This document shows positions 1,825 to 10,316 of a DNA stretch of 64,000 nt, in pieces. The translations under genes were made by a program, and so were the position numbers. The stretch is taken from positions 1 through 64,000 of the forward strand of contig NZ_FWXR01000002.1 of the NCBI RefSeq assembly GCF_900176465.1. The letters are read 5' to 3'. Source of the stretch: Fulvimarina manganoxydans. Its GTDB lineage: Bacteria > Pseudomonadota > Alphaproteobacteria > Rhizobiales > Rhizobiaceae. The notes below the pieces were generated by a model that made no database searches, was not told the DNA's origin, and was given only the letters and a program-made list of their open reading frames with translations. Numbering within the stretch: the first letter of the stretch is position 1; each line of letters begins with the position of its first letter.

Positions 1825-2604
1825 TCAGGCACTCATCAAATGCGCGACGATCTCGCTGACATGGGCTTTGATGATCCCATGGCCAGGCGCCGGGGGACGG
1901 GAGATCATCATGACCGGCAGGCCCAGTTGCCGGGCAGCCTCGACCTTCGGATAGGATGCCAGCCCGCCGGCATTGCGGCAGATCAAATGGGTGATCCCGA
2001 GGCGCCGAAAGACTACCGCCTCCTCGCCAGGCGTCTTCGATGGGCCTGCGAGGATCACCTCCGCCTTTGGGTGAACCCTTGTCTCCAGGGGCTCGATCAT
2101 TCTGAGCACCGGGCGCAGATCGGGACGCAGCGCCAGCGGCGAAAGATGCTGGCGTCCGAGCGCGACAAAGGGGCGCGCGGCGAAGGGCAGGGCGCTGATC
2201 GCAGCGGTCTCGTCCTCGACGAGGGTCCACTGATCGCCCGGCATTGGCGCCCAAGCTTGGCGCAGCAATTTGAGCAAGGGGATTTCGGCCCGGCTTGCCG
2301 CCGCAGCGGCATGAGCGGCCATCTGCTTGGCGAAAGGATGAGTCGCGTCGATCAGATGGTCGATCCGCTGCTCGATAAGATGGGCGAGAAGGCCATCGAC
2401 GCCGCCAAAGCCGCCGATCCGCAATTCGATACCCGGCGGGCAGCTGGGCTGACGCGTTCGGCCCGCAAGAGACAGACAAACACGGACCTGCGAGGCCGGA
2501 AGATCACCGAGAGCCTTGGCAAGCGCGTTTGCCTCCGCGGTTCCACCGAGCAGGAGAACCCGTTTCGGCGCGTCTCTCCCGTCCTCGCCGTCCAAGGTCC
2601 TCAT
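1825..2604 (-). CDS. cobK: Precorrin-6A/cobalt-precorrin-6A reductase CobK
   Basis: 259 aa, the normal length for CobK/CbiJ. The N-terminal nucleotide-binding loop is LLLGGTAEANALAKAL, and the family signature DATHPFAKQM lies near residue 90. The C-terminal segment has the ISRPPAPGHG motif. The enzyme reduces precorrin-6A to precorrin-6B with NADPH in corrin-ring synthesis. Its start overlaps the end of the solute-binding protein gene by 4 bp, making it the last gene of a response regulator-kinase-binding protein-cobK operon. No other cobalamin gene is in the window, so CobK is separated from its pathway partners. Confidence 0.9.
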   Translation of the reverse strand: MRTLDGEDGRDAPKRVLLLGGTAEANALAKALGDLPASQVRVCLSLAGRTRQPSCPPGIELRIGGFGGVDGLLAHLIEQRIDHLIDATHPFAKQMAAHAAAAASRAEIPLLKLLRQAWAPMPGDQWTLVEDETAAISALPFAARPFVALGRQHLSPLALRPDLRPVLRMIEPLETRVHPKAEVILAGPSKTPGEEAVVFRRLGITHLICRNAGGLASYPKVEAARQLGLPVMMISRPPAPGHGIIKAHVSEIVAHLMSA

Positions 2605-3698
2605 GGAGCAGACCTGTCCCCTACATCGATCGAGGCATACCAGTCGCTGAGAAAGCGCTCCTTCTTCTTCTGATCGAGCCAGGTGAGGAGGCCGGGCCGC
2701 AGGCGGATTGGCAGGAGCGAGGTCGCGCCCTTGAAGCGCTCGCCGAAAAAGGCCTGTTGCGGCGCGCCGGCCGAGACCAGGGGAAAGAGCGACGACTGCT
2801 GTGCGATTACGTCCTGTCCAGCGGGCGAGAGCAGGAAGTCGATGAAACCTTCGGCGGCCAGCGGATGGTCGCTCGAGGCCATGACGAAGGCCGAGCGTGT
2901 CATGACGAGCGCATAGTCCGAGAGAAGCAGAATGCCGATCCGCTCGTCGGCCTCGACGCTCTGAAGCGCATAGGAGCCGATGACATTATAGGCGAGGACG
3001 GTCGTGCCGTCGGCAACGTCGGCGACCATGTCCCCTGTGCAGCAATAGGTGCGGGCCCGCGCTCGGCCGAGCGATTCGACGAGGCGGGACGCCTGATAGC
3101 CGCGCTGGGCGTCCTGGGTCGCGAACATATAGCCGACGCCGGACAGAGCGATGTCATAGGTGCCAACCCGGCCGTTGAAGAAGGCCGGATCGTCGCGGAT
3201 CATGCCGGCAAGGTCGGAGCGGGTCTCGGGCAAAGGGCGGTCGGCGAAGGCCGCACGGTTGAAGACGAGGGCGACGGGTTCGGAGGTGAAGCCGAAAAGC
3301 TCGTTCCGCCAGCGAGCCCATTCCGGTGTCTCGTTCGAGACCGTGATCGGCAGGGCCAGGCCGCGATTGACGAGCTCGACCTGAAGATCCATCGCCGAGG
3401 AGATCACGATATCGGGCGCCTGGTCAGGCTTTGCCCCGAGAACGGCGGCATGAAGCTCGCTCGTGTTGAACTCGGTATAATGGATGTCGATCGTCGGATT
3501 GGCGTCCTCGAAGGCTTCGATCAAGGCCGTCATCGCGACAGTGTCGGTCGCGCTCCAGATGGAAAGGTCGATCGGCCGATCGCCGGCCTCGCCTGTCTTG
3601 CCGCTCTCCAGGCCATGCGAAACAAGAAAGAGAGCACCCGCGAGGCAGAGCCCGACGCCGAGAAGCACGGCGAACAGAGCGATTGGCCGCCATCGCAT
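2601..3698 (-). CDS. Periplasmic solute-binding protein embedded in a two-component operon
   Basis: 365 aa with an N-terminal hydrophobic segment (about residues 5-27) that is a signal peptide or anchor. The mature part looks like a type II extracellular binding protein: IDLSIWSATDTVAMTALIEAF at its start, then a PDIVISSAMDLQVELVNRG hinge region and a C-terminal HPLAAEGFIDFLLSPAGQDV block typical of iron/polyamine-type binding proteins. No permease or ATPase gene is linked. It starts at the last base of the kinase gene, so the two are co-translated. I infer that it senses a ligand for the kinase rather than feeding a transporter. The ligand is unknown. Confidence 0.75.
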   Translation of the reverse strand: MRWRPIALFAVLLGVGLCLAGALFLVSHGLESGKTGEAGDRPIDLSIWSATDTVAMTALIEAFEDANPTIDIHYTEFNTSELHAAVLGAKPDQAPDIVISSAMDLQVELVNRGLALPITVSNETPEWARWRNELFGFTSEPVALVFNRAAFADRPLPETRSDLAGMIRDDPAFFNGRVGTYDIALSGVGYMFATQDAQRGYQASRLVESLGRARARTYCCTGDMVADVADGTTVLAYNVIGSYALQSVEADERIGILLLSDYALVMTRSAFVMASSDHPLAAEGFIDFLLSPAGQDVIAQQSSLFPLVSAGAPQQAFFGERFKGATSLLPIRLRPGLLTWLDQKKKERFLSDWYASIDVGDRSAP

Positions 3699-5146
3699 CA
3701 GGATGGCTCCCCGGCCCGCAGGCCCAAGGTTCCGCCTCGGGGCGCGATCGGCAGAACGAGCGTCGCCTTCAAGCCGCCCTCCGCGCTCTGCCCAAGATCG
3801 AGCCGGCCATCATGGCTTGCTGCCACAGAGGCCGCGATCGAGAGCCCGAGACCCGAGCCGCCATGGCTGCCGCGCGTATAAAAGCGCTCGACGACTTTCG
3901 CGCGCTCGTCGGCCGGAATGCCGGGGCCCGTATCCTCGATCGAAAGAGCCATGGCGGCTCGACCCGAGATTTCGGCCGGTGCGGCGCTCAGCGTCACGGC
4001 GCCGCTAGCCGGGCTATGACGCACGGCATTGTCGAGGAGATTGCGCATGGCTTCGCGAATGGCGATCGCGTCGCCATGGACGTGAAACGGCTCGCCGGAC
4101 GGCGGCAGGTCGACGGCGAACTCGATCTCGGCCGCGCCCTCCGCGCGGATCGCCTCCTCCAGAAGCTGACGCAGGAGAAGCGCCAGATCGACCGGTTCAA
4201 GGCGCGCCTCGTCGGCCCGGTGGATCACCATGGCATGGGAGAGAAGCTGGTTGGTCAGGCGAATGGTGCGCGCCGCCTGGTCGCGCGCCCGCAGGATCGC
4301 CGCTTCGCTTCTCAGGTCGTCGGTCTCGACCGCCATCTGCAATTGGCTGTTCAGCGTCGCAAGCGAAGTGCGAATCTGATGGGCGACATCGGCGATGAAG
4401 GATTCGGCCTGGCCTTTTGAGTGTTTCAGGCGGAGCATGAAGCCGTTGATCGAGGCGATCAGACTTTCGACCTCGCGCGGCGGGACGGCGCGAAGCGGCT
4501 CGAGATCCGATGGTTGGCGCATGCGGATATCGCGTTCGATGCCCGAAAGGGGACGCATGGCGAGGCCGATGCCGGCCCGCGCCCAGGCGATGCCGGCGAG
4601 CGAAAGGGCGGCAAGCGGCACGAGACCCTTGAGGATCAGGTCGTTCTGCATCGCCACGCGCGCCCGGCGGGTCTGACCGATCTGCACGCCGACCCATTGG
4701 GGATCGGCCGAGCCGAGGAGGGTGCGCCCATGCACGACGAAGCGCACCGTCTCGCCGCTATAGGCGTGATCGAAGAAGATCGGCTCGTCCGAGGGCAGGT
4801 CCGGGCCGAGACGATCGTCGAGCGGCAGGTCCGGCGTCCCGGTCAGCGTGCGCCCCTCCCGGTCGAGAATGCGATAGAAGACCCGGTCGCTCTCGGCGAG
4901 CGCGAGAATGTCGAGCGCCGAAGGCGGCAAATCGATATCGACACCTTCCGGGGTGAGGGTGATGCGCTCCAGGACCGAGATCGCCGCGCCGCGCAGGAGA
5001 AGATCATAGGTCTCGTTGGCGGCGCTTCGCGCATAGGTCCACAAGCCGATGGACAGGACCGCGATCAGCACCGCGAAAGCGGCGGTCGCGGCGATCATCA
5101 GCCGTCGGCGGAGGGAATAGGGGCGTGTCTCAGCCGTCGCGGACAT
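3698..5146 (-). CDS. tctE: Sensor histidine kinase, TctE-type
   Basis: 482 aa. Two membrane segments (about residues 17-40 and 172-190) flank a periplasmic sensor region of about 130 residues. HisKA follows, with phospho-acceptor His256 in FIADVAHQIRTSL. The HATPase boxes are all present: NLLDNAVRHSP (N), DTGPGIP (G1), RFYTRG (F) and GSGLGLSIAASV (G2). The residue after the acceptor His is Gln rather than Glu, and RT is followed by Ser rather than Pro; TctE-type kinases often have HQIRTP, so only the Pro is unusual. The start overlaps the regulator gene by 17 bp. Placement opposite tctCBA supports a role in sensing tricarboxylate-like compounds. Confidence 0.85.
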   Translation of the reverse strand: MSATAETRPYSLRRRLMIAATAAFAVLIAVLSIGLWTYARSAANETYDLLLRGAAISVLERITLTPEGVDIDLPPSALDILALAESDRVFYRILDREGRTLTGTPDLPLDDRLGPDLPSDEPIFFDHAYSGETVRFVVHGRTLLGSADPQWVGVQIGQTRRARVAMQNDLILKGLVPLAALSLAGIAWARAGIGLAMRPLSGIERDIRMRQPSDLEPLRAVPPREVESLIASINGFMLRLKHSKGQAESFIADVAHQIRTSLATLNSQLQMAVETDDLRSEAAILRARDQAARTIRLTNQLLSHAMVIHRADEARLEPVDLALLLRQLLEEAIRAEGAAEIEFAVDLPPSGEPFHVHGDAIAIREAMRNLLDNAVRHSPASGAVTLSAAPAEISGRAAMALSIEDTGPGIPADERAKVVERFYTRGSHGGSGLGLSIAASVAASHDGRLDLGQSAEGGLKATLVLPIAPRGGTLGLRAGEPS

Positions 5147-5801
5147 TGGCGATATAGCCGAGGCCGCGAATGGTGCGGATATGGATCGGGGTTCCTTCGA
5201 GCTTGCGGCGAAGGCGTGTCAGCGTCTGTTCGACGGCGTTGAGGGTCGGGGTCTCGTCGAAGGTATAGATGCGGTCGGCGACATCCTCCTTGGTCAGAAC
5301 CCGATCGAGGGAGCCCAGGAAGAGTTCGAGAAGCTGCACCTCGCGCTGGCGCAGTTCGAGATCGACGCCGTTGAAGGTTGCCCGCCGCGCCCCGCGATCG
5401 AATTCGAAGGCGCCTTGCACGAAGCGATTGCTCGCCTCTCCCGACCGGCGCCTGACCAGAGCCCGGCAGCGCGCCGACAATTCGCGCAGGTCGAAGGGCT
5501 TGACCATGTAGTCGTCGGCGCCGACGTCGAGACCGGTAATTCGGTCGTCGATCTCCGAGCGCGCCGTCAGCACCAGAGCAGGGGTGCGGTCACCGCGCCC
5601 ACGCATCGCCCGGAGCACTTCATAGCCGTTCATGCCCGGCAGATTGATGTCGAGAATGACGACGTCGAAACTCGCATGGCGCAGCAGCGCCTCCGCCTCG
5701 GCCCCATTGGTCTCGAGGTCGATCGCATGACCCTCCGCGCCGATCCGCTCGCGGATGGCGTCGGCCAGATCCTGGTTGTCTTCGACGAGAAGAATTCGCA
5801 T
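5130..5801 (-). CDS. tctD: OmpR-family response regulator, TctD-type
   Basis: 223 aa from the ATG at 5801. An in-frame TTG at 5822 would add seven residues, but the canonical receiver start MRILLVEDNQDLADAI favours the ATG. The phospho-acceptor is Asp51 in VVILDINLPGMNGYEVLRAM, and the receiver lysine is in MVKPFDLREL. The C-terminal winged helix has the ELRQREVQLLELFL and VEQTLTRLRRKLEGTPIHIRTIRGLGYI motifs. It is the first gene of the minus-strand operon and diverges from tctC. The four 11-bp-spaced repeats at 5917-5956 are its probable binding site. Confidence 0.9.
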   Translation of the reverse strand: MRILLVEDNQDLADAIRERIGAEGHAIDLETNGAEAEALLRHASFDVVILDINLPGMNGYEVLRAMRGRGDRTPALVLTARSEIDDRITGLDVGADDYMVKPFDLRELSARCRALVRRRSGEASNRFVQGAFEFDRGARRATFNGVDLELRQREVQLLELFLGSLDRVLTKEDVADRIYTFDETPTLNAVEQTLTRLRRKLEGTPIHIRTIRGLGYIANVRDG

Positions 5802-5916
5802 GACGACAAAGCCATAGACCAAGGATGGCGGCGGGGAAATCAGGTTTTTCCCCGATCAGGCCCGCGCATTGTCGCCGAATGCCGCCGCGGATTGCCGCAC
5901 TGCACCATGAAAAGAT

Positions 5917-5956
5917 GTCAGTTTCCCGTCAGTTAGCGGTCAAGAACGCGTCAGTT
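5917..5956. promoter_or_regulatory. Four tandem GTCA-type direct repeats, 11-bp period (putative TctD operator)
   Basis: GTCAGTT occurs at 5917, 5928 and 5950, with GTCAAGA at 5939. The four copies are spaced exactly 11 bp apart and so lie on one face of the helix. OmpR/PhoB-family regulators bind tandem direct repeats with 10-11 bp period. The block lies 116 bp from tctD and 166 bp from tctC in a 320-bp divergent intergenic region, the expected place for the regulator's operator. The rest of the region (5802-5916 and 5957-6121) shows only a good Shine-Dalgarno before tctC. Confidence 0.7.
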
Positions 5957-6121
5957 CCTGCTAATAGATGAAGCAACCGGGAGGGAGAACCCGGACGTCT
6001 GTCGCCGATCCGTTATGGATGTGAGCGGCGTGCGCTCTTCGAGCGGACAGGGCCGGGCATCGTCCCAAAGCGACGTTGGCCGCTTATGAAAAGACGAATT
6101 CGACACTTGGGAGGAAATCAC

Positions 6122-7096
6122 ATGAGATTGAGACTGTTCGCTTCGACCCTGATCGCCGCGACCGTCTTTGCCGGCGTTGCCATGGCGCAGGATATCGAAC
6201 GCCCCGAATGCATTGCGCCGGCTCAGCCCGGCGGCGGCTTCGACCTCACCTGCCGCATCGCCCAGAAGGGCCTCGAAGGCGTGATCGCCAACCCGATCCA
6301 GGTGACCTTCATGCCCGGCGGCATCGGCGCCGTCGCGATCAACCTCTTCAACACGACCCGCACCGACGATCCGAACGCCATCGTCGCCTTCTCGTCCGGT
6401 TCGCTCCTCAACATGGCGACCGGAAAATATGGCGAGTGGAACGAGGATGACGTGCGCTTTACGGCGACCGCCGGCACGGACTACGGCGCTGTCATCGTAC
6501 GCGCCGATTCCGAATATAAGACGCTCGCCGATCTGATGGCCGCCCTCAAGCAGGATGTGGGCTCGGTGGTTCTCGGCGCCGGTGGCTCCGTCGGATCGCA
6601 GGATTGGATGAAGGCGGCGCTTCTGGTTCGCGCCGAAAATCTCGACCCGCGCCAGATGCGCTATGTTGCCTTCGATGGCGGCGGCGACGCGATGTCGGGC
6701 CTCCTCGGCGGTTCGATCCAGGTCTATACCGGCGATGTGGGCGAGATGATCTCTCAGCTCGACGCCGGCACCGTGCGCATCCTCGCTGTCATGAGCAAGG
6801 AGCGCCTGCCCGAGCCCTTCGCCGACATTCCGACGACGGCCGAGCTCGGCTATCCCGATGCCGAATGGGCCATCCTGCGCGGCTATTACATGGGCAAGAA
6901 CGTCTCGGACGAGGCTTACAATGCCTGGGTCGACGCCTTCAAACAGGCCTATGGCACCGAGAAGTGGCAGGAGACCGTGAAGGCCCAGGGCCTGCAGGTC
7001 TATTCGGTCGCTGGCGAGGAGTTCAATCAGGAGATCCTGGGGCGGGTCGACCGCATGCGGCAAATCGCGAAGGAAGCCGGTCTGATCCAGGAGTAA
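6122..7096 (+). CDS. tctC: Tricarboxylate-binding receptor TctC (Bug family)
   Basis: 324 aa from the ATG at 6122, which has a GGAGG eight bases upstream; an earlier in-frame start at 6086 lacks support. A Sec signal peptide (MRLRLFASTLIAATVFAGVAMA) is followed by IERPECIAPAQPGGGFDLTC. The PGGGxD loop is a hallmark of Bug/TctC receptors that bind carboxylates. Further typical segments are VVLGAGGSVGSQDW and YVAFDGGGDAMSGLLGGSIQ. It is the periplasmic component of a tripartite tricarboxylate transporter with TctB and TctA downstream. The real substrate is not evident. Confidence 0.9.
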   Translation: MRLRLFASTLIAATVFAGVAMAQDIERPECIAPAQPGGGFDLTCRIAQKGLEGVIANPIQVTFMPGGIGAVAINLFNTTRTDDPNAIVAFSSGSLLNMATGKYGEWNEDDVRFTATAGTDYGAVIVRADSEYKTLADLMAALKQDVGSVVLGAGGSVGSQDWMKAALLVRAENLDPRQMRYVAFDGGGDAMSGLLGGSIQVYTGDVGEMISQLDAGTVRILAVMSKERLPEPFADIPTTAELGYPDAEWAILRGYYMGKNVSDEAYNAWVDAFKQAYGTEKWQETVKAQGLQVYSVAGEEFNQEILGRVDRMRQIAKEAGLIQE

Positions 7097-7123: not shown

Positions 7124-7179
7124 CCTCTCATAGTCGTGCCGGCCGCCCAGTCTTCAGGCCGGCACGATCGGTTGAGAGG
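7124..7179 (+). other. Long intercistronic stem-loop between tctC and tctB
   Basis: TCGTGCCGGCC at 7134-7144 pairs perfectly with GGCCGGCACGA at 7157-7167, giving 11 bp with a 12-nt loop. An outer 7-bp stem, CCTCTCA (7124-7130) with TGAGAGG (7173-7179), extends it. There is no T-tract, so it is more likely an mRNA-stabilising or attenuating element after the receptor gene than a full terminator. Confidence 0.65.
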
Positions 7180-7276
7180 GATGCGCCTTGGCTTTTTGCG
7201 AAGGTGCTCGAACACGGGCCGGCGCCTTGGCGATTCGAAACGCCGGCATGTCTCAACTCTTTCGAAAGACACGACG

Positions 7277-7720
7277 ATGGCCGATCGGCTGTTTGCCGGC
7301 GCCCTTTTGATCGTCGCGATCGCCTACACCTATATTGCGTTCGCGATCCTCAAGGCGCCTTTCCAATACGATCCGCTGGGGCCCGAGAGCTGGCCGCAGA
7401 TCCTCGGATGCGTGGCGATCCCGTGCATCCTCTATGTGCTGTGGCGTCCAGACGTCGCGAGCTTCGATCTGGAAATGCCGACCTGGGCCCGTGTCGGAGC
7501 CCTGTTCGTGCTGCTTATGGCCTATGCCTGGGTGTTCCAGCCGCTCGGCTTCATCCTGTCGACGCTGATCTTCTGCTTCCTGCTCTCCTTGATGCTGGGG
7601 GCCAAGCCGCTCAAGGCCGGCCTGTTCGGCATCGTCACTGGCGTCGCCGGCTATTTCGTCTGCACCCGCCTTCTTGAATTGAACCTGCCTGCCGGCAAGC
7701 TCTTCGTCGGGCTTCTCTGA
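7277..7720 (+). CDS. tctB: Small tricarboxylate transporter membrane protein TctB
   Basis: 147 aa from the ATG at 7277 (MADRLFAGALLIVAIAYTYI); longer in-frame extensions run back through the tctC-tctB hairpin and are not credible. Four hydrophobic segments are visible (about residues 5-25, 40-56, 72-105 and 112-130), the standard TctB topology. Residues GPESWPQILG form the conserved first loop of the family. It is the small membrane subunit that works with TctA and TctC. Confidence 0.88.
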   Translation: MADRLFAGALLIVAIAYTYIAFAILKAPFQYDPLGPESWPQILGCVAIPCILYVLWRPDVASFDLEMPTWARVGALFVLLMAYAWVFQPLGFILSTLIFCFLLSLMLGAKPLKAGLFGIVTGVAGYFVCTRLLELNLPAGKLFVGLL

Positions 7721-7734
7721 AAGAGATCATCGTC

Positions 7735-9267
7735 ATGGACGCAGTCTTTTCGGGGCTCGCCTCCGGTTTCGCGACCGCTCTCGACCCCTTCAACCTCATG
7801 CTCGTGCTCGTCGGTTGCTTTGCCGGCACACTGATCGGCGCGCTTCCGGGCATCGGCCCGATCAACGGTGTCGCCATCCTCTTGCCGATCGCCTACGGCC
7901 TCGGCTTCAAACCGGAATCGGCGATCATCCTGCTCGCCGGCATTTATTACGGCGCCGAATATGGCGGCCGTATCTCTTCGATCCTGCTCAATGTTCCGGG
8001 CGATGCCGGCGCCGTCATGACGACGCTCGACGGCAATCCAATGGCCCGGAAAGGCGAAGCGGGCAAGGCGCTGTCGCTCTCGGCCGTCGCCTCCTTCGTC
8101 GGCGGCACTTTCGCCGTTATTCTGATGACGTTGTTCGGCCCGCTCCTGGCGGCCTATGCCGTGACCTTCTCGCCATCGGACTATGTGGCGCTGATGGTTT
8201 TCGCCTTCGCCTCGCTTGCCTCTCTCGTCGGCTCCAATCCGGTCAAGACGCTGCTCGGCGCCGTCATCGGCCTGATGCTCGCCTCGATCGGCATCGACGC
8301 CAATACGGGCGTTGCGCGTTACACCTTCGGCATCCCCGATATTCTCGCTGGCATCGACTTCCTGGTCGTTGTCATCGGCCTGTTCGGCATGGCCGAACTG
8401 ATCCATCTGGTCGAGCAGCAGGCGCGGGGAACGCTGAAGACTCTCGAGATCGACAAGAGCTTCGTCACCATGGCCGATCTCGCGCGGACCAAATGGACGA
8501 TCCTGCGCTCCTCCTGCATCGGATTCTTCATTGGCATTCTGCCGGGAACCGGCGCCTCGGTCGCCTCGGCCGTTGCCTATGGCACCGAGAAGCGCGTCCA
8601 GAACAATCCGAAGAGCTTCGGCGAGGGCGACATCCGCGGTCTTGCCGCGCCGGAAGCGGCGAACAACGCGGCGGCCGGCGGCGCCATGGTGCCGATGCTG
8701 ACCCTCGGCATTCCGGGCTCGGGCACGACCGCGATCCTTCTCGGCGCGCTGCTTCTCTTCAACGTCACGCCCGGCCCGCTGATGTTCCAGCAGCGTCCCG
8801 AAATCGCCTGGGGCCTCATCGCCTCCATGTATATCGGCAATATCGCGCTTCTGGTTATCAACCTGCCGCTGGTCGGCCTGTTCGCCCGGCTCCTGACCAT
8901 CCCGCAGCAATATCTGACCCCGCTGATCGCCGTTCTTGCCTTCATCGGTGTCTATTCGATCGTCTCCAACCCGCATGATCTCTACATGATCACGCTTCTC
9001 GGCCTGTTCGGCTGGATCATGCGCAAGCTCGGCTTCTCGCTGGCGCCGGTCATTCTGGGCTTCGTCCTTGGCAGTCTGTTCGAGAACAATCTGCGCCGGG
9101 CTCTGTCGATCTCGGCCGGCGACTGGACCATTCTCCTCCAGTCCTGGAACTCGATCGTCCTCTACGTGCTGACGGCGATCGTGGTCATCGTGCCGATCTG
9201 GTACGGACGCCGGGTCGCGGCCCGCAACGCTCGCTCCGAAGACGAATCTCCCAAGGCCCCCGCATGA
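7735..9267 (+). CDS. tctA: Large tricarboxylate transporter membrane protein TctA
   Basis: 510 aa with about 11-12 membrane segments. Characteristic TctA motifs are GTLIGALPGIGPINGVAILLP near residue 40, YGAEYGGRISSILLNVPGDAG near 85, FFIGILPGTGASVASAVAYG near 270 and GAMVPMLTLGIPGSGTTAILLGAL near 320. It is the ion-coupled permease of the tripartite system. It starts 14 bp after tctB, and its stop overlaps the next gene's ATG (ATGA at 9264-9267). Confidence 0.93.
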   Translation: MDAVFSGLASGFATALDPFNLMLVLVGCFAGTLIGALPGIGPINGVAILLPIAYGLGFKPESAIILLAGIYYGAEYGGRISSILLNVPGDAGAVMTTLDGNPMARKGEAGKALSLSAVASFVGGTFAVILMTLFGPLLAAYAVTFSPSDYVALMVFAFASLASLVGSNPVKTLLGAVIGLMLASIGIDANTGVARYTFGIPDILAGIDFLVVVIGLFGMAELIHLVEQQARGTLKTLEIDKSFVTMADLARTKWTILRSSCIGFFIGILPGTGASVASAVAYGTEKRVQNNPKSFGEGDIRGLAAPEAANNAAAGGAMVPMLTLGIPGSGTTAILLGALLLFNVTPGPLMFQQRPEIAWGLIASMYIGNIALLVINLPLVGLFARLLTIPQQYLTPLIAVLAFIGVYSIVSNPHDLYMITLLGLFGWIMRKLGFSLAPVILGFVLGSLFENNLRRALSISAGDWTILLQSWNSIVLYVLTAIVVIVPIWYGRRVAARNARSEDESPKAPA

Positions 9268-10316
9268 TCGATGCCTATCGGCCGGTATTCCTGGCCATTG
9301 GGGCCGCGCTTCTCGGCGCGGCCCTTTTCAGCCTTCTGGGCGCGCCTGCCGGAGCCCTTGTCGGCTCGACCCTGGCTGTCACCGCCGTCGCCGCCTTGCG
9401 CTGGCATCCGCGCGTGCCGGGAACCTTGCGCAATCTCGGCTTCACGACGATCGGTGTGACGCTCGGCGCCGGCGTCACCCCCCATTTCGTCACCGATGTC
9501 TTGCGCTTCCCGATCAGCCTCTTTGCCCTGACCGTCACAATTCTGATCGTCATGGTCTCGTCGAGCTTCGTCCTTCGGCGCTTTTTCGGTGCGGCGAAGA
9601 CTACGTCCATTCTCGCTACCTCGCCGGGCGCCTTGTCCTATTCCCTGTCGCTGGCGACCGATCGCCCCGGCGCCGAGGTCGACATTCCCTTCGTGATGGT
9701 TCTGCAGAGCCTTCGCCTCCTTCTCATCACCCTGCTTTTGCCGCCGATCGTCGCCATCGTCGATCAGGCAAGCGGTCAGGAGAGCATGGCGACGCTCGCG
9801 CCCCATACGCTCAATCTTCCCGTCAGCATCGTTTTAATCGCCCTGTCGGCCGGCCTCGGCTATGTCGCCGAGAAGATCCGCATTCCCGCCGCCTATCTTC
9901 TCGCCGGCGTGGTTCTCAGTGGCCTCGGCCATGGCGTCGGCCTTCTGGAAGGGAGGCCATCCACCTTCCTCACCTTTTTCGGCTTCTCGCTGGCTGGTGC
10001 TGTCATCGGGGCACGGTTCTCTTCGATCACACGTGATCAGCTCCGCGCGCTTTTCTTCGCCGGATGTACCGCGACGGGGCTTGCGGTCGGCCTGTCGGGG
10101 GCGGTGAGCGCGCTCGTCGCCCATCTTCTCGATCTGCCCTTCGGCCAGGTCTGGGTCTCCTTTGCGCCCGGCGGCGTCGAAGGGATGAGCGCCATGGCCC
10201 TCTCGCTCGGCTACGACCCGGCTTATGTGGCGACCCACCACATCTTCCGCCTGCTTCTCCTGATCGCGGTCCTGCCACTCTTCGTGCGCCCGCCCAAGGC
10301 GACTGAGGGCGGTTGA
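9264..10316 (+). CDS. AbrB-family integral membrane protein
   Basis: 350 aa, about ten hydrophobic segments arranged as a duplicated unit: two similar blocks each with a G-x-x-x-G-A-rich helix (GFTTIGVTLGAGVTPHF and FGFSLAGAVIGARFSSIT). This is the AbrB/AmoA-like membrane family (PF05145), not the DNA-binding AbrB. Members often lie next to tripartite tricarboxylate transporters, but their function is not firmly known. Translational coupling to tctA by a 4-bp overlap suggests it acts with that transporter, perhaps as an exporter or auxiliary permease. Confidence 0.8.
   Translation: MIDAYRPVFLAIGAALLGAALFSLLGAPAGALVGSTLAVTAVAALRWHPRVPGTLRNLGFTTIGVTLGAGVTPHFVTDVLRFPISLFALTVTILIVMVSSSFVLRRFFGAAKTTSILATSPGALSYSLSLATDRPGAEVDIPFVMVLQSLRLLLITLLLPPIVAIVDQASGQESMATLAPHTLNLPVSIVLIALSAGLGYVAEKIRIPAAYLLAGVVLSGLGHGVGLLEGRPSTFLTFFGFSLAGAVIGARFSSITRDQLRALFFAGCTATGLAVGLSGAVSALVAHLLDLPFGQVWVSFAPGGVEGMSAMALSLGYDPAYVATHHIFRLLLLIAVLPLFVRPPKATEGG

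Follow-up and report, generated by a model that had tools for sequence, protein, structure and literature searches.

The genome of Fulvimarina manganoxydans carries a short array of four direct repeats in the gap between tctDE-like regulatory genes and the tricarboxylate transporter genes tctCBA. What is this array for? Which protein would bind it, and which of the two diverging gene groups does it serve? Comparing sequences among relatives offers an answer to these questions: the TctD-like response regulator encoded next to the four repeats very probably uses them as its operator at the tctCBA promoter, where activation would proceed via two tandem dimers.

The array and its neighbouring genes

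Within the window (the whole 64-kb stretch of DNA that was analysed), GTCA starts at positions 5917, 5928, 5939 and 5950, a step of exactly 11 bp, and the seven-letter words at these positions are GTCAGTT in three units and GTCAAGA in one. Both the period and the words had been given in a preliminary description of this DNA and are borne out by the letters. The units read as follows, with their conservation in the divergent loci described further below.

5917..5927, plus strand: half-site unit 1, GTCAGTTTCCC; GTCAG in 12 of 12 four-unit divergent loci
5928..5938, plus strand: half-site unit 2, GTCAGTTAGCG; GTCAG in 12 of 12 four-unit divergent loci
5939..5949, plus strand: half-site unit 3, GTCAAGAACGC; GTCAA in 11 of 12 four-unit divergent loci; over the -35 position of the putative tctC promoter
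5950..5960, plus strand: half-site unit 4, GTCAGTTCCTG, promoter-proximal; GTCAG in 12 of 12 four-unit divergent loci

How unusual is such an array? It is the sole exact four-copy match in the window, and when up to three mismatches are allowed the window holds two four-copy matches, both in the array, with 0.24 expected from shuffling. The three-copy pattern occurs at three places in the 4.82-Mb genome, two of them inside the array (none for the reversed-pattern control), and the four-copy pattern is found in 28 of the 297 genomes of the family, F. manganoxydans counted.

The array sits between tctDE, accompanied by a gene for a solute-binding protein, and tctCBA; the Pfam domains of these neighbours agree with the divergent tctDE/tctCBA region that had been proposed.

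2601..3698, minus strand: ABC-type solute-binding protein, possible sensory partner (Pfam; kinase fusions in relatives)
3698..5146, minus strand: tctE-like histidine kinase with 2CSK_N and HATPase_c (Pfam)
5130..5801, minus strand: tctD-like OmpR-family response regulator, receiver PF00072 plus Trans_reg_C PF00486, proposed binder (Pfam)
6122..7096, plus strand: tctC, periplasmic receptor (Pfam); GGAGG at 6110-6114 precedes the ATG at 6122, and the frame is also open from 6086
7136..7720, plus strand: tctB (Pfam); the real start may be further in
7735..9267, plus strand: tctA (Pfam)
9264..10316, plus strand: AbrB-type membrane protein, probably the final gene of the operon (Pfam; gene order as on three Roseobacteraceae plasmids)

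How far can the regulator be called TctD? Its NCBIfam scores are 185.5 bits for QseB (cut-off 345), about 184.2-184.7 for TctD, 176.1 for RppA and 174.7 for PmrA, all below cut-off; for the TctD equivalog NF012023 the curated cut-off is 337 bits and the regulator reaches 184.7. A second regulator in the same genome scores higher on the TctD model than the one next to the array (192.9 versus 184.2 bits). The regulator is TctD-like by gene neighbourhood and kinship, and not a curated equivalog.

In Salipiger and Azospirillum argentinense a domain search finds kinase and solute-binding protein in a single chain, ordered 2CSK_N, HisKA, HATPase and binding domain (L201 4668-7076 and L205 4662-7202); judging by annotation and length, the same fusion is present in Sulfitobacter, Palleronia and two further Azospirillum. 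This suggests that kinase and solute-binding protein may form a three-part sensor. The AbrB-type protein 3' of tctA (9264-10316) has counterparts on the three Roseobacteraceae plasmids (L201-L203) and may belong functionally to the transporter operon.

Conservation among relatives

Relatives of the regulator were gathered from the family, the order, named genomes and plasmid records. The 69 candidate loci, six of them hand-picked from a set of 80 loci, gave 67 distinct ones after removal of two with near-identical upstream regions (lists L155 and L089 compared; L155 carries the array). A divergent tctC is present in 31 of the 67, with regulator identities of 45-100%; all six hand-picked loci fell in the non-divergent set. 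Does the repeat persist where the gene order does? The pair G[AT]CAG-N6-G[AT]CAG lies within the gap on the tctC strand in every one of the 31 divergent loci, where 500 single-base shuffles give 0.044 of 31, a figure that overstates the strength of the result because related loci are not independent samples. On the other strand the same pair occurs in one of the 31. Of the spacings from 6 to 22, only 11 (31 loci) and 22 (13 loci) were found at two or more loci. Where regulators are 45-50% identical, the gap shows little common sequence except the repeats and a downstream TA. The check proposed in the preliminary description, conservation of the 11-bp repeats in relatives with the same gene order, did not refute the proposal.

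Its repeat word needs refining. GTCAGTT is not the general unit: the half-site common to the loci is G[AT]CAG, mostly with a T just before it, and copy 3 usually reads GTCAA. The number of units also varies, with four in 12 of the divergent loci, three in one and two in 18. Four-unit loci have regulators at least 66% identical to that of F. manganoxydans and two-unit loci at most 52%, while locus L159, at 63%, has three units and a degenerate fourth. Among the plasmid records Maritalea has four units and three Roseobacteraceae have three plus a degenerate fourth. Four copies mark one regulator group; distant relatives carry two.

In the non-divergent loci, where target genes were sought in one genus, the pair precedes the regulator gene in 8 of 36 in this orientation and in 2 of 36 on the opposite strand. 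The first wide scan, over 112 regulator-match loci including duplicates, had found the pair upstream in 23 on the tctC strand and in 6 on the other, and in 2 in a coding-region control. Of the 40 plasmid matches listed, 16 were read (two of them extended), and the strict G[AT]CAG pair is present at the expected target or regulator gap in 13. It was not found in those gaps in Burkholderia, Novosphingobium and Vibrio. The best pair score in the 16 records is 12/12 in eight, 11 in six, 10 in Maritalea and 8 in Vibrio; the Ensifer, Burkholderia and Novosphingobium records have no gene annotation in the region, hence no named target genes.

Phase of the repeats to the putative tctC promoter

Where does the array lie relative to the promoter? 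In an alignment of the 31 divergent loci on the last half-site (copy 3 for L159), T stands at +15 in 27 and A at +16 in 29, and up to +29 these are the only other well conserved columns beyond the half-site. Their equivalent in the window is T5965-A5966, which would be the start of the following element.

5965..5970, plus strand: TAGATG, putative -10 element for tctC, with its TA at +15/+16 from the last half-site (alternative register TAATAG at 5962-5967)

The last half-site ends 10 bp before this putative -10, and the penultimate unit spans the -35 position. PhoB acts at Pho boxes by class II activation, its operator taking the place of the -35; by analogy, the layout of the array is that of a class II activator that replaces the -35. 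A match to a sigma-70 promoter with two hexamers was not found in 5780-6130, which says little since only 0.1 was expected by chance. Presence of the repeats in all 31 divergent loci at a fixed distance from the -10-like TA supports what had been proposed for them, a layout of the OmpR family and an operator for the adjacent regulator.

Positions 5977-6121 of the window would form a leader of about 145 nt from the putative tctC start point to the ATG. The distance from the last unit to tctC is 162-173 in the seven loci of the family whose regulators are at least 74% identical, that of F. manganoxydans counted. Is there an RNA element in this leader? No Rfam match was found in 5700-6300 at E up to 1, and the leader folds no better than shuffles (z -0.21); such an element was set aside.

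The site goes with the target genes

Where gene order differs, which genes does the site accompany? Three Azospirillum plasmids have tctC-type genes, tctB and tctA followed by tctDE in the same direction, and there the pair is upstream of the first tctC-type gene; no pair was found upstream of tctD. One genus contributes six genomes in which a regulator of 62-64% identity stands without an adjoining tctC and without an array. A search of these genomes for the pair with the phased TA returned 16 places, and 32 in the reversed control, so that the positions and not the counts carry weight: five of the 16 lie before tctC (in five of the six genomes, about 12 kb from tctD), four before a citrate lyase ligase gene (in four of the six, about 9 kb from tctD) and seven elsewhere. 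Of the target genes at these nine sites, Pfam identified four, and the other five closely resemble those four. A four-unit array was also sought in this genus; the one match in the six genomes (G441) is a tandem repeat by its letters. In Microvirga the gap that holds the pair separates tctD from a gene resembling ATP-citrate lyase; in Phyllobacterium it separates the regulator from an ABC transporter. When gene order changes, it is the target promoter, and not the regulator gene, that the motif accompanies. Loci L226, L229, L231 and L232, from four genomes, have a TctD-type site between a tctA gene and the citrate lyase ligase gene.

Can the motif be used to find further targets in F. manganoxydans itself? 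The pair with TA occurs at two places in its genome and at two in the reversed control; neither is the array, which the pattern misses because unit 3 reads GTCAA. The pattern TGWCAGN5YGWCAG finds seven places, one of them the array, against eight in the reversed control. As these counts are not above the control, no further targets are claimed in this genome, and a genome-wide regulon drawn from the motif, with pattern counts at or below the reversed control, was set aside.

Alternative readings of the array

Could the array be a chance or neutral tandem repeat? Duplication readily makes short repeats, and of the 29 four-unit places in the family two fall in a single GTCAGGCCCCG tandem repeat. 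In the array, however, the units agree over GTCA and, for the most part, over no more than one to three bases after it, which is not the picture of a fresh tandem duplication, and this divergence of letters outside the first bases rules out a tandem-repeat origin. Against the pair in all 31 divergent loci, far above shuffling, and the reversed four-copy control in none of the 297 genomes, chance is a vanishingly improbable reading. Does the array instead serve chiefly the autoregulation of tctD, repressing or activating tctDE leftward, with the tctC promoter controlled otherwise? The gap is common to both directions, and TctD of P. aeruginosa reportedly controls its own gene (PMC4513871). Six of the 18 loci with two units have the first of these just 12-20 bp from the tctD start, so that binding there should touch tctD expression. 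Unit 3, GTCAA, also reads on the opposite strand as TTGAC, a -35-like word, but no -10-like word is seen by eye 16-18 bp past it on the tctD strand, and it was set aside as a -35 for tctD. The conserved phase, moreover, is to the TA on the tctC strand, and in rearranged gene orders the site remains with tctC and parts from tctD; a chiefly autoregulatory role is unlikely.

Would PhoB bind the array instead of TctD, tying the transporter to phosphate limitation? F. manganoxydans has phoB, and PhoB half-sites are likewise GTCA direct repeats with about the spacing seen here (PMC4513871, PMC8041468). The four-unit layout is not unique to tct, because 16 of the 29 four-unit places in the family lie before btaA (DUF3419), with the same period, seven at tctD/tctC and six elsewhere, the two in the tandem repeat among them; btaA and btaB are PhoB-regulated in Sinorhizobium (PMC3972451), and by analogy btaA is an expected PhoB target. 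Yet P. aeruginosa PhoB prefers GTCA(C/T) half-sites (PMC8041468), and base 5 is C or T in 60 of the 64 half-sites of the 16 btaA arrays and in 0 of the 28 of the seven tct arrays, where it is G or A in 28 of 28. The tct and btaA arrays show one scaffold with a different letter at base 5. The tct arrays also track tctD/tctC across families and the site goes with tctC and citrate lyase genes, all of which makes a Pho box a very unlikely reading. What about a mixed box of four parts, with two units for each regulator, in which PhoB and TctD compete or cooperate? In six P. aeruginosa promoters a TctD motif lies 22 nt further on from a PhoB box (PMC4513871). Four half-sites are in register here too, and unit 3 deviates, being GTCAA in six of the seven tct arrays and also in three of the 16 btaA arrays. 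The PhoB-type half-site of that report is (T)GTCAT, however, and no unit of the seven tct arrays has C or T at base 5; the P. aeruginosa tctD and opdH-tctCBA promoters themselves, too, have the TctD motif alone. A mixed box is accordingly very unlikely, and both PhoB readings are disfavoured by base 5 of the half-sites.

The btaA arrays (L114-L117, L120-L123, L128, L129 and L133-L138), with their 11-bp steps, are probable four-unit Pho boxes. The btaA gene was not found in the F. manganoxydans genome, and the 3.7 kb of sequence surrounding its phoB hold no GTCA pair. Besides the tct array, this genome has just one further array of three GTCA units, L003 near 1501-1526 (G000 C46:112717-112742, minus strand). 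All three of its units are GTCAT, an open frame of 458 codons or more lies behind it, and it is probably a Pho box.

Recognition helix and half-site letters

What in the regulator might read these letters? Among the 31 divergent loci, the 13 with three or four units have the recognition helix EQ(T/I)..RLR; another 16 have E(L/V)Y..RLR, and the remaining two EQY or EQH. Base 2 of the last half-site, read by eye, is T in all 13 EQ(T/I) loci and A in 15 of the 16 E(L/V)Y loci; the EQY and EQH loci have one T and one A. A simple rule for base 2 is broken by the six genomes with a distant tctD: their helices are of the EQT type, yet the two half-sites differ, with GACAG first and GTCAG second at tctC and the opposite order at the citrate lyase ligase gene. 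The helix classes are also clades, so the shift at base 2 may be a single event.

A broader scheme can be drawn from these letters. The 11-bp GxCA repeats phased to the -10 would be a scaffold common to alphaproteobacterial TctD-type regulators and PhoB, with base 5 as the main separator (G/A versus C/T), base 2 shifting with the helix (EQT versus ELY) though not strictly, and one tct lineage having doubled the site for two dimers. We offer this scheme tentatively and think it less likely than not, the more so because T and A half-sites occur together in a genus whose helix is of the EQT type.

A possible mechanism

How would the array work as an operator of the TctD-like regulator? TctE, perhaps together with the co-encoded solute-binding protein, would phosphorylate TctD; the solute-binding protein is given a sensory part because in Salipiger and Azospirillum argentinense it forms one chain with the kinase. 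Phosphorylated TctD would bind as head-to-tail dimers, two 11-bp units per dimer, so the four units could hold a pair of dimers next to each other on the same face of the helix; both TctD as the binder of the array and the number of dimers are inferred from the sequences. The proximal dimer, over the -35 position and ending 10 bp before the -10, would recruit RNA polymerase in the class II manner of PhoB. Activation rather than repression is proposed from the phase to the -10, and is not a given at tctC because P. aeruginosa TctD opposes PhoB at common promoters (PMC4513871). With tctCBA switched on, the cell would take up a tricarboxylate. This is most likely citrate, whose role as signal or substrate is deduced from the citrate-lyase target genes in relatives.

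Relation to known systems and significance

Operators of the QseB/PmrA type are also direct repeats with 11-bp steps, and the regulator belongs by sequence to the same sub-branch of the OmpR family; the PmrA half-site, CTTAA, is another word than GTCA. With Pho boxes, those before btaA in the family included, the array shares the 11-bp direct repeats, the GTCA core and the four tandem units, and differs from them in base 5 (G/A here, C/T there) and in the neighbouring genes. The closest precedent by regulator family and target operon, both identical, is P. aeruginosa, where TctD regulates its own gene and opdH-tctCBA via a TctD motif and where four-part PhoB/TctD sites stand in six other promoters at which TctD opposes PhoB (Bielecki 2015, PMC4513871). 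There the four-part sites are thus boxes for two regulators in other promoters, whereas the four units of the present array belong to a single type and stand at the promoter of the transporter; the two motifs are compared by description. An alphaproteobacterial TctD operator was not found among the literature matches listed, a set with most subscription journals outside its coverage. The kind of site is already known, an ordinary gene switch and no new system. What is added here are the alphaproteobacterial letters, the number of units, the phase and the contrast at base 5.

What follows from this? A probable operator with its promoter phase is now defined to the base, conserved, and open to footprint or reporter design. 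How TctD and PhoB, related regulators with near-identical DNA sites, each keep to their own has been a live question since their cross-talk in P. aeruginosa was reported (PMC4513871), and the array offers a natural comparison for it. Since relatives have the same site at a citrate lyase ligase gene and at one resembling ATP-citrate lyase, the signal or substrate for this branch of transporters may well be citrate. If the tentative scheme of one scaffold and changing letters were true, paralogous regulators would be told apart by a readable specificity code, and a regulon for citrate uptake and breakdown would come with it.
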